DNA from: a virus
IMG/VR virus record: IMGVR_UViG_3300007236_000021
Location: 1 to 32,723 of that record
DNA: 32,723 nt
Strand: one strand, 5' to 3'
Under the pieces are notes generated by a model. The model ran no database searches, had not been told where the DNA came from, and saw nothing but the letters and a program-made list of their open reading frames with translations. The position numbers and the translations under genes are program-made. Positions 3,938 to 19,212 of this stretch are shown piece after piece. Numbering within the stretch: position 1 is the first letter of the stretch; each line of letters begins with the position of its first letter.

Positions 3938-5304
3938 CGTCCAATAACTACTTCAATTGTTCCTTCGCCGTCGCTATGATCTTGCAATGCTTTACCAATA
4001 ACAGTACCCATTTTAGGATCATCAGATGCCATTGCACGACCGTTGCCTGCACTAACCATCATGTCACCTTTGTGTACTGGTCCTATTACTTTACAAGGTA
4101 CACGTCCTTGTAGAGCTAGAGGAACAACATGATTGCCTTCTTGTGCTGCATTCATTAGATGTGCTGGATCTGTTGATACCACGCCTGCTACACGTTTACA
4201 TTCAGCTGTATCACACATTGTAATTTCTTTGTCACCACCAAACATCACAACTGTACCTGGTTCAATGTCAGCATCTGCTTCATACATCTCTGCTAAGTCA
4301 GCGTATTGTGCTTGAGTAGTAGTAGCAGTAATTACACCTGCACTAAAGTTACCGCTACCATCACGGAACACAATAGTGCTTGCAGTGTTTGCGCTTGTAG
4401 CGTTTGAAGTAACAGTAAATGTACCGCTTGATGCGCTACCACTGATACCGCTACCGCTTGTAGCACCTGCTGTCAACTTACCATCCAACTGTGTTTGGAT
4501 TGCACTTGTAACACCATCTAGGTAACCAAGTTCAGTCGATGTAACTGCCGATACTCCAACTTTACCACTACCATCTGACACCAACGCTCTTGACGCTGTT
4601 AAGTTTTCAGTATCAATTGTTGTTGCCGCACCAGTGATTGTTGCTTGTTTACCATCCAACTGTGTTTGGATTGCACTTGTAACACCATCAACATAGTTCA
4701 ACTCTGCTGTCGTTGCAGTGACACCATCCATTTTGTTAAGTTCTGCTGCCGTAGCTGTTATATCAGTTCCGCCGATTGCAATAGTTGTGGCATTCATCTT
4801 GCCGTTAACATCTAGTGGCACATCCATGTCCCAACGACTGTTAGTGTTATCCCATGTCAGTGACGCATATTCGCTCCCAACTGGACCAACTTTAATACCG
4901 CCGCCGTTAGCCTCTGCACTTGTAGATGCATTGTTAGCAACGTTGATTGCTAGGTCTGCAATTGTAACAACTGTACTATCAATTGTTGTTGTAGTACCTT
5001 GTACTTCTAGGTTACCTGTGATAATTGAATCACCTGTGATATCAAATCCACCTGCGTGTGTAACTGTTACAGTTGCATCAGCAATATTGCCTACAATGTT
5101 GCCACCGGTAGCAATAACCTCGACTTGGCTTGTACCATCGATAATTTTAGTAGCATCAACTCCAGTTAGTCCACTACCGTCGCCTATAAAAGCTGCACCT
5201 GTAATGTTGCCCGTGGCAACAACTTGACCTCCGGTAATGATGTTACCGCCGGTGACATTACCTGTGTCAGTAATACCATTTGTTCCATCTAATGTAATTG
5301 CCAT
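3931..5304 (-). CDS. Tail fibre protein with C-terminal YADLAE (peptidase G2-like) module
   Basis: 457 aa, in three parts. Residues 1-100 are fibre repeats (NVTGGNIITGG, AFIGDGSGLTGV). Residues 100-330 include the phage-fibre pattern TTTTIDSTVVTIADLAINV and AELNxxDGVT / IQTQLDGK repeats typical of trimeric fibre shafts. Residues about 331-457 form a non-repetitive globular module beginning QYADLAEMYEADADIEPGTVV and including RVAGVVST and LALQGRVPC. This module recurs in the fibre at 15845-17419. Its opening resembles the YAE/F.E..DG start of Peptidase_G2 auto-processing domains, but this link is weak. Probably a receptor-binding or accessory fibre. Its promoter is the late box at 5328-5335, with AAGGA as ribosome binding site. 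Its stop overlaps the convergent Nudix gene. Confidence 0.78.
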   Translation of the reverse strand: MAITLDGTNGITDTGNVTGGNIITGGQVVATGNITGAAFIGDGSGLTGVDATKIIDGTSQVEVIATGGNIVGNIADATVTVTHAGGFDITGDSIITGNLEVQGTTTTIDSTVVTIADLAINVANNASTSAEANGGGIKVGPVGSEYASLTWDNTNSRWDMDVPLDVNGKMNATTIAIGGTDITATAAELNKMDGVTATTAELNYVDGVTSAIQTQLDGKQATITGAATTIDTENLTASRALVSDGSGKVGVSAVTSTELGYLDGVTSAIQTQLDGKLTAGATSGSGISGSASSGTFTVTSNATSANTASTIVFRDGSGNFSAGVITATTTQAQYADLAEMYEADADIEPGTVVMFGGDKEITMCDTAECKRVAGVVSTDPAHLMNAAQEGNHVVPLALQGRVPCKVIGPVHKGDMMVSAGNGRAMASDDPKMGTVIGKALQDHSDGEGTIEVVIGRY

Positions 5305-18055: not shown

Positions 18056-18565
18056 TTACGATGTGTAATTTTCTGTGATAGCAATAGAAACAGTGTCTCC
18101 TTTGGTACCAGAAACAATTGCAGTTCCTTCGTCAGTAAAGAAGTTCAACAGATAGCGGTTGTCGCTGTAGTCAAGTGCCCATTTGTTTGTCAAACGCTTG
18201 ACCAAAATATCAGTTGAATCATCACGGAAAATTGCAATGTTCATGTTTCCTTCACTCAAGGAACTTGTAGCTTCATTGGCCAATGTAGCAACATACTCGG
18301 TTGTAGTTGTTAGTCCATACACCAAGTATTTGGTTGAGCCTTTTTGGCGTACAATTACTGCATCTTCTTCCGACTGGCCTGTGTTTCTAGCACGACATCT
18401 GATCACAGGATATGATGCACTTGCAACGGTTTTAAGACCGCCAACAACACCAAAATATTGATCAGAGTTTAAAGTAGCCGGATATACTGCGGCAGTAAGA
18501 GATCCAACGTTGTTGAAGCCAATGTCTTTAGTTGTTGACATTTTAATTTTAAGAGGACGACCCAT
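18056..18565 (-). CDS. Virion structural protein candidate (MGRPLKI family)
   Basis: 169 aa. The N-terminus MGRPLKIKMSTTKDIGFNNV and the later segment QYFGVVGGLKTV resemble small structural proteins of cyanophages and other marine T4-like phages. The body is beta-rich with no membrane segment or known catalytic motif (VIRCRARNTGQ, DAVIVRQKGSTKYLVYGL, NKWALDYSDNRYLLNFF). It is a single-gene unit: a strong AAGGAG ribosome binding site, a leader of about 85 nt with two hairpins, a possible late promoter (18654-18661), and its own strong terminator (18008-18045). That suggests high late expression, as for a capsid decoration or tail component. The exact place in the particle is unknown. Confidence 0.66.
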   Translation of the reverse strand: MGRPLKIKMSTTKDIGFNNVGSLTAAVYPATLNSDQYFGVVGGLKTVASASYPVIRCRARNTGQSEEDAVIVRQKGSTKYLVYGLTTTTEYVATLANEATSSLSEGNMNIAIFRDDSTDILVKRLTNKWALDYSDNRYLLNFFTDEGTAIVSGTKGDTVSIAITENYTS

Positions 18566-18653
18566 TTGATTTCTCCTTATAGAAGTCCGATGCGGGTTCT
18601 AGCCGCTACGCAGAGGTCTCTGCATAAAACACATCATTGTGTTGCATAGCTTT

Positions 18654-18661
18654 TATTTAGT
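18654..18661 (-). promoter_or_regulatory. Possible late promoter (ACTAAATA) with hairpin leader
   Basis: On the - strand ACTAAATA keeps the TAAATA core but lacks the first two consensus bases. The 85-nt stretch to the ATG at 18565 contains two inverted repeats, GCAGAG/CTCTGC (18610-18623) and AACACA/TGTGTT (18628-18643), which may form leader hairpins. Confidence 0.35.
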
Positions 18662-18688
18662 CGAAAAAAGTACCAATCTGTTCAACCT

Positions 18689-18696
18689 TTTAAATA
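18689..18696 (+). promoter_or_regulatory. Possible late promoter (TTTAAATA) close to a start codon
   Basis: TTTAAATA ends 5 nt before the ATG at 18702. The spacing is the same as at the 73-aa gene (23749-23756) and similar to gp14. It could start an almost leaderless message. One mismatch to TATAAATA; low certainty. Confidence 0.35.
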
Positions 18697-18701
18697 CAAA
18701 T

Positions 18702-18863
18702 ATGAACAAGTACATGGAACCGGTGCATGTTCCATGGCGCCATAGGTACTTCTGGGATGGCGGATTGCACTGCATTACATTAGATCTTGAAAGAGAAGGC
18801 AAACAAGAAGACTACTTTCCTCTAAGAGGAAATCAAGGAATAATCGACTATGGGTTTGATTAG
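18702..18863 (+). CDS. Small hypothetical protein, 53 aa
   Basis: From the ATG at 18702 the product is MNKYMEPVHVPWRHRYFWDG, followed by GLHCITLDLEREGK and a C-terminus GNQGIIDYGFD. The composition looks like a real folded small protein: varied residues, several Trp, His and Tyr, no low complexity. It is isolated between two leftward units and points the other way. There is no Shine-Dalgarno sequence, but a late-like TTTAAATA ends 5 nt upstream. An ATG further up (18639) would add 21 residues of poorer quality. No known function. Confidence 0.5.
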   Translation: MNKYMEPVHVPWRHRYFWDGGLHCITLDLEREGKQEDYFPLRGNQGIIDYGFD

Positions 18864-18884: not shown

Positions 18885-18916
18885 AAAAAAAGGCCTGCTA
18901 AAATATAGCAGACCTT
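18885..18916 (-). terminator. Intrinsic terminator of the candidate RNA
   Basis: On the - strand AGGUCUGCUA pairs perfectly with UAGCAGGCCU (10 bp, one G-U) around a 5-nt loop and is followed by a run of about 7 U. There is no - strand protein gene upstream that it could serve before the promoter at 19140-19168, so it ends the RNA unit. Confidence 0.85.
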
Positions 18917-19133
18917 CTCTATAATATTTGATAGGTGGGACTAAGGATTACCCACAAGCGCCAGCACAGATCCTGTCCACGTCCAGCGAAGCCTAGCATT
19001 GGATAGTTACTTCCAAAATCTACATCTTCCTGTCTCCAGGCTCATGTAGTGCCACTACAGCTACTAGCCAAGTTACTGCCTCTGTAAGCAGCGTTTCCTT
19101 GCACTATCTAACTCAGACCGTCGTCTTTGTTAT
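18885..19133 (-). ncRNA. Candidate phage-encoded structured small RNA, about 245 nt
   Basis: The unit lies between a near-consensus promoter and an intrinsic terminator and has no convincing reading frame. It is visibly richer in G and C than its flanks, as structured RNAs in AT-rich genomes often are. Local helices include UGUAGUG/CACUACA (19059-19045), CCUG-GAGA-CAGG with a GNRA tetraloop (19040-19029), GUGGG/CCCAC (18955-18935) and a long-range helix UUAGAUAGU with ACUAUCCAA (19111-19103 with 19007-18999, one mismatch). It lacks a tRNA T-loop and CCA end, shows no obvious tmRNA tag, and no RNase P core motif. A 26-codon ORF (18919-18999) exists but has no ribosome binding site. Function unknown. 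It could act on host transcription like 6S RNA, or as an antisense regulator. Confidence 0.6.
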
Positions 19134-19139
19134 GTTTAT

Positions 19140-19168
19140 AATATAGTACATCTTGACACGTTTGTCAA
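19140..19168 (-). promoter_or_regulatory. Near-consensus sigma70-like promoter of the candidate RNA
   Basis: On the - strand a perfect TTGACA (19168-19163) is separated by exactly 17 nt from TATATT (19145-19140). Transcription should begin near 19133. It is the best promoter match in the window. Confidence 0.8.
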
Positions 19169-19169
19169 G
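19152..19169. promoter_or_regulatory. Perfect inverted repeat over the -35 box and spacer (operator candidate)
   Basis: CTTGACA-AACG-TGTCAAG is a perfect 7+7 inverted repeat with a 4-bp centre. It covers the -35 hexamer and the upstream half of the spacer, which is where a dimeric repressor would block RNA polymerase. Confidence 0.55.
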
Positions 19170-19170
19170 T

Positions 19171-19212
19171 ACTTTTTTATATTTTTTTATATTTTTTTAT
19201 ATTTTTTTTAAT
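19171..19212. promoter_or_regulatory. Phased A-tracts upstream of the RNA promoter (UP element)
   Basis: Read on the - strand, runs of 6-8 A separated by TAT recur every 10 bp (about four tracts) directly before the TTGACA. A-tracts at helical spacing bend DNA and bind the RNA polymerase alpha subunit, so this should strengthen the promoter. The element abuts the stop of the 77-aa gene. Confidence 0.6.

Follow-up and report, generated by a model that had tools for sequence, protein, structure and literature searches.

Does the structured segment beside the capsid gene of this phage serve as the leader of a late gene, or is it an RNA gene in its own right, and to which family does it belong? 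The window (the whole stretch of 32,723 nt, positions 1 to 32,723 of IMG/VR record IMGVR_UViG_3300007236_000021) was described in a first-pass annotation as carrying here a stand-alone, non-coding structured RNA bounded by a promoter and a terminator. The features concerned are the following.

19172–19209, minus strand: phased A-tracts, a possible UP element (sequence)
19163–19168, minus strand: −35 box TTGACA (sequence and conservation in relatives)
19152–19169, no strand assigned: perfect inverted repeat CTTGACA-AACG-TGTCAAG over the −35 box (sequence)
19140–19145, minus strand: −10 box TATATT (sequence and conserved position in relatives)
18885–19133, minus strand: predicted transcript of about 248 nt, manA-type RNA plus terminator (fold, Rfam match, promoter position, compensatory change)
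18926–19133, minus strand: conserved RNA domain (model R1, 236.8 bits; manA, 40.0 bits over 18925–19128)
19109–19132, minus strand: 5′ hairpin with a GACG loop (helix 1, four pairs changed on both sides)
19104–19108, minus strand: 5′ strand of P1, GATAG, pairing with 18930–18934 (helix 2 of the covariation test)
19054–19057, minus strand: loop L4, UAGU, putative kissing partner of L6 (UAGU/ACUA in the window, mostly UGGU/ACCA in other loci)
19004–19007, minus strand: loop L6, ACUA, partner of L4 (same exchange)
18970–18974, minus strand: loop L7, AGGAU, pseudoknot strand (GGAU/AUCC to UGAU/AUCA in two clades)
18944–18948, minus strand: loop L8, AUCCU, partner of L7 (same exchange)
18930–18934, minus strand: 3′ strand of P1, CUAUC (covariation test)
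18885–18916, minus strand: intrinsic terminator, 11-bp stem plus T-run (sequence pattern; conserved behind relatives)

Fold, terminator and promoter of the RNA

A scan of loci around related capsid and neighbouring genes yielded a single homologue, L090, which aligns with the window over the promoter core and a domain of about 205 nt, with little alignable sequence on either side. A DNA pattern drawn from the conserved core retrieved 86 stretches, and nhmmer recognised 73 full-length relatives besides the window. The promoter and terminator counts given below are based on 46 distinct relatives from IMG/VR contigs; the loci were drawn by exact patterns, and the counts describe what those patterns recover.

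The several local helices noticed in the first-pass annotation are borne out by the folding energy of segment 18885–19133 (−86.8 kcal/mol, z = −3.9), which none of 200 shuffled sequences equalled. The same annotation made its RNA reading depend on compensatory base changes across homologues, and these were found: in the window-group alignment 25 of the 62 pairs are changed on both sides, a number reached by none of 500 shuffles, and every slid register is much worse than the proposed pairing. The GACG-loop hairpin at the 5′ end is visible in most cyanophage copies of manA RNA (see below) too.

The pseudoknot joining L7 and L8 is represented by GGAU/AUCC in 13 of 20 rows of the alignment and by UGAU/AUCA in 6, the latter variant coming from two separate clades, while L134 matches neither type. 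Its cyanophage equivalent, read by eye, is CUGUA/UACAG, with CUUUA/UGAAG in P-TIM40 and S-SSM7. The pseudoknot was marked as uncertain in the 2010 description of manA, and these sequence changes, those in the cyanophages being read by eye, firm up a formerly doubtful predicted contact. A new loop–loop contact, L4–L6, is proposed here: it reads UAGU/ACUA in the clade of the window and UGGU/ACCA in the other loci, and L093 has a G-U intermediate. This evidence is suggestive, as the change may represent one single event.

The terminator hairpin with a U-run, also noticed previously, is real by its pattern and begins about 10 nt past the conserved domain. A terminator lies close behind 35 of the 46 distinct window-group relatives as compared to 3 of 46 shuffled controls; the relatives outside the 35 include L129, L090, L132, and L138, whose terminators lie farther off, and a clade with another conserved element. 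A fold in which P1 and the terminator coexist is predicted for the window and for most of the loci nearest to it, though several L166/L141/L160 subgroup members have a low predicted probability of P1.

In the clade just mentioned, the terminator after the manA-type RNA is replaced by a second conserved RNA-like element of about 140 nt. It is located at L113:8660–8801 (+) and occurs also in L131, L099, L143, L127, and L163, being weaker in L096, L110, L111, L128, and L088. The copy in L113 has no Rfam match at E ≤ 1, and the terminal hairpin of the element appears, by eye, to covary.

The phased A-tracts and the TTGACA and TATATT boxes were confirmed at the positions listed; the boxes are spaced by 17 nt and form a σ70-type promoter upstream of the RNA, and A-rich stretches precede many of the window-group loci as well. 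Taken alone, the 11/12 promoter of the window is not significant, since the window contains six sites of at least 11/12, where 1.4 are expected. Its significance comes from conservation: 44 of the 46 distinct relatives keep a site of at least 10/12 in the equivalent place, which is true for 1.6% of control positions. In nearly all window-group loci, 6 nt separate the end of the −10 box from the RNA domain. These promoter and terminator counts support the first-pass picture of a free-standing RNA beside the capsid gene.

The perfect 7+7 inverted repeat over the −35 box is present as described, but its interpretation as a repressor operator does not hold in general. The repeat is found only in the window and in the L113/L127/L163/L173 clade (TTGACATTTGTGTCAA) and is absent from the remaining ones of the 46 distinct relatives compared, and so it is not a general feature of the promoter. 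An alternative reading is offered by the plus strand, on which the repeat is a hairpin with a T-rich run behind it.

Relationship to the manA family

At the gathering threshold, the segment has no Rfam match. The sensitive scan revealed a full-length match to RF01745, the manA RNA (40.0 bits, E = 8e-9, model positions 1–192), for which the gathering score is 55.2 bits. Hence, the Rfam covariance search suggested in the first-pass annotation was negative at the gathering level and positive in the sensitive scan. Four relatives exceed the gathering score (L134, 59.0; L138, 58.0; L143, 56.0; and L160, 55.6 bits). In the reverse test, the covariance model R1, built from 20 window-group sequences with the cyanophage sequences left out, finds 16 of 18 known manA loci from cyanophages and marine assemblies, with E from 1e-6 to 5e-14. 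Since four relatives pass the gathering score and the window falls below it, homology is demonstrated and the window lies outside the boundary: by these model scores, its RNA is a diverged homologue of manA just outside Rfam’s present limits and not a curated member. This is why the previous view of an RNA without a family has to be given up. Neither ARAGORN nor Rfam gave a tRNA or tmRNA match, in agreement with the first-pass annotation, and these identities were rejected.

The similarity to the manA RNAs of cyanophages and marine metagenomes includes the full-length model match, the order of stems, the closing P1, the usual 5′ hairpin with a GACG loop, a GUGGUG-type loop, a UAAC(C/U)A loop, the pseudoknot joining the last two loops, a consensus promoter at the 5′ end, and, in several cyanophages, the location downstream of gp23. 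For the classical manA loci, a promoter of at least 10/12 was detected in 88 of 89 among the matches listed, while 1.6–1.9% of control positions carry such a site. The differences concern P1 (GATAG/CUAUC in the window and GGGAG/CUCCC in cyanophage manA), the L4–L6 pair (UAGU/ACUA versus UGGU/ACCA), and the downstream context, because the window type is nearly always followed by a terminator and not by a gene.

In the 2010 description, manA was considered certain both as an RNA and as a cis-regulator, and probable as a riboswitch, and its pseudoknot was rated doubtful; the set includes two gammaproteobacterial copies (Weinberg 2010, PMC2864571). Later, manA was placed in 5′ UTRs (PMC7657543) and listed among the cyanophage cis-regulatory RNAs (PMC9964418). 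The main text of the RNA-seq paper on P-HM2 infection contains no statement on ncRNAs.

When the region was compared with named phages by blastn, only weak chance-like matches were obtained, mostly over the A-tracts, and the neighbouring ORF fragment matched Marine virus AG-345-D19. The RNA of L160 has no match in the named-phage collection; therefore, the window type is not represented among the isolates of that collection. A plasmid search gave one 27-nt match, judged to be due to chance. A pattern scan of GTDB gave four manA matches; L191 and L193 are on contigs of 188–189 kb, L191 with PhotoRC-II and a tRNA nearby, and both look like phage contigs within cell bins. A candidate copy in Vibrio phage 2.275.O was rejected, as it scores 16 bits with R1 inside a CDS and the RF01745 match is absent.

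A single copy of the RNA was counted per genome, both in 12 phage contigs and in 4 genomes of cyanophages. The closest named relatives of the window gp23 are large T4-like phages of several hosts (62–66% identity). No copy is present in eight large contigs that carry close relatives of gp23, which indicates that the RNA is an optional, dispensable element.

Genomic neighbourhood of the window group and the cyanophage copies

Downstream of the RNA, the window has the following arrangement.

18639–18863, plus strand: 74-aa ORF matching only the C-terminal end of phrog_25854 (269–317 of 323)
18563–18644, minus strand: freshwater-2 RNA (RF02980), 73 bits, leader of the 169-aa ORF
18056–18565, minus strand: 169-aa ORF, a late gene preceded by the freshwater-2 leader

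Past the terminator, there is a gene fragment on the opposite strand, and the next gene on the same strand is 360 nt away behind its own freshwater-2 leader; thus, the RNA of the window is not situated in the 5′ UTR of a co-transcribed gene. The freshwater-2 RNA, located about 240 nt past the terminator and on the same strand, is the leader of the next gene and separate from the manA-type RNA. The 74-aa ORF between the RNA and this leader is probably a truncated gene. Many relatives have leader sequences similar to the freshwater-2 RNA of the window in front of genes that start with MGRP. The gene that comes next is co-directional in most window-group relatives, and often it is an MGRP gene. 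Late-type promoters (NATAAATA) belong to structural genes of the window, and in most relatives such promoters come after the RNA.

Some relatives carry the RNA near tRNA genes: in L134, it is located between tRNA-Pro and tRNA-Thr and has no promoter of its own, and in L132 and L138 it precedes a tRNA array by about 250 nt. A general parallel is offered by the tRNA cluster of T4, as T4-like phages encode small stable non-tRNA RNAs of unknown role among their tRNA genes. Directly after the RNA of L132 and L138, before the tRNA array, a small conserved ORF of about 20 aa was seen by eye (MIKTNTIGIIYWPSRKWGMS / MFKTNTICIICWPPGDWGMS), close behind a sequence resembling a late-type promoter. Two viral contigs with a manA-type RNA also carry permuted tmRNA genes of the alphaproteobacterial type (L090:5648–5949 (+) and L131:887–1189 (−)).

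A tRNA begins 4–18 nt after the RNA in S-SSM7 (L190), L214, L228, L199, and L244. In named cyanophages, the surroundings are diverse. The RNA lies behind gp23 in P-HM1, P-RSM4, S-SSM5, MbCM1, and MED4-213, before purL in P-SSM2, before gp32 in P-HM2, before talC in P-RSM6 and P-TIM40, and before an opposite-strand gene in P-TIM68. The manA intervals are 4794–4969 in P-HM2 and 142856–143032 in P-SSM2, and in P-HM1 a terminator lies downstream. Of 90 cyanophage copies among the matches listed, about 54 are followed by an ORF that starts within 90 nt, with no simple terminator seen by a scan that misses longer hairpins; at 11 loci, a long AGACC..GGTCT hairpin occurs downstream of the RNA. Since many cyanophage copies sit just before a gene, the RNA may have a leader role there.

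Two further arrangements were observed around manA copies. In the cyanophage loci L177, L178, L180, L183–L187, and L189, the −35 box of the RNA promoter lies inside the hairpin that terminates the upstream gene (GAGGGTGCTTGACACCCTC-T7), which creates a terminator/promoter overlap just upstream of the manA RNA. At classical loci such as L220, L210, L253, L208, L245, and L247, the manA RNA is followed by a recurrent hairpin, AGACCTAAGATGCAACT..AGT.GGGCAGATGGTCT, with a T-run, and its conserved interior suggests more than a plain terminator.

Discrete RNA gene or leader

We lean towards the view that the window RNA is a discrete gene, a diverged manA relative with its own promoter and terminator, which most likely acts in trans and is not the leader of the downstream gene. 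The combination of a promoter with a terminator, the lack of an antiterminator, the separate late-type promoters, the placement near tRNAs in some phages, and the single copy point to this. Transcription would begin from the σ70-type promoter at the 5′ end of the structured domain and would be stopped by the intrinsic terminator about 10 nt after it. The product would be a compact RNA of about 248 nt, with the GACG-loop hairpin at its 5′ end, a multi-branched core closed by P1, and two loop–loop contacts, L7–L8 and L4–L6. Most likely, the partner bound by this structured RNA in the course of infection would be a small molecule or a protein of host or phage. Its host-type promoter, set among promoters of the late type, points to expression in the early or middle phase. 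The abundant and early RNA of the first-pass annotation is likewise a prediction from the type of promoter.

A terminator just past the structured domain is, however, a riboswitch layout too, and a promoter plus a terminator is no proof of trans action. If the RNA were a cis-acting riboswitch or attenuator, its ligand-binding domain would decide whether the terminator forms and would control the late gene at 18056–18565. The previous rating of manA as a certain cis-regulator and probable riboswitch (Weinberg 2010, PMC2864571), the distance of about 10 nt between domain and terminator, the position of many cyanophage copies 9–60 nt before an ORF (among the matches listed), and the co-directional next gene, often of the MGRP type, in most window-group relatives are consistent with such control. 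Yet the mutually exclusive structures of an expression platform were not found: in 32 transcripts, no antiterminator pairing with the 5′ arm of the terminator was clearly better than in shuffled sequences (lowest shuffled fraction 0.07). Moreover, most relatives carry a separate late-type promoter for the downstream gene, which also has a freshwater-2 leader of its own, and the downstream neighbours, which include structural genes, tRNAs, gp32, talC, purL, and the opposite-strand gene of P-TIM68, are incoherent, so that we consider this control fairly unlikely. The ORF-adjacent cyanophage copies, including those before gp32, talC, and purL, suit a leader and speak against a discrete RNA. They could belong to a mobile RNA module that some cyanophages employ as a leader, while others, and the phage of the window with them, have it as a free RNA; this would agree with a constant promoter and a varying downstream context (terminator, tRNA, or ORF). 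However, compact phage genomes would put nearly any RNA gene near a co-directional one, and for this reason the leader-like cases need no cis function; such dual use seems unlikely to us.

The other two possibilities concern free RNAs of a different kind. A promoter, about 250 nt and a terminator make up the layout of a trans-encoded antisense small RNA, but most of the conserved positions are in helices, junctions, and internally engaged loops, and a conserved unpaired seed is not evident in the window-group alignment, making base-pairing of this type very unlikely. The first-pass suggestion of a diverged 6S RNA agrees with the stand-alone layout only, in that 6S RNA is also free-standing with its own promoter and terminator. 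While 6S RNA is a long hairpin with a central bubble, the fold here is multi-branched with loop–loop contacts, and no Rfam 6S model matched at E ≤ 10; the 6S identity was rejected and appears extremely improbable.

Returning to the discrete RNA gene, we note that manA homology, the structure, the promoter and terminator patterns, and the separateness from the neighbouring late genes are established at the level of sequence. For the window group, a discrete RNA is the better reading than a cis leader, and manA may act in cis elsewhere. Tentatively, and short of regarding it as probable, we extend this idea to the whole manA class of “riboswitch candidates”: it might represent a trans-acting, single-copy phage RNA expressed from a host-type promoter in T4-like phages of different lineages, sometimes inside tRNA operons, and acting on the host machinery while infection proceeds.

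The manA RNA has been an orphan since 2010 and was treated as a leader of metabolic genes. The near-universal 5′ promoter, the terminators, and the tRNA neighbours shift the question from ligand and gene control towards the binding partner of this RNA in infected cells, which is open to test in cultured Prochlorococcus and Synechococcus phages. The window group takes the manA family past the Rfam cut-off and into another lineage of T4-like phages.
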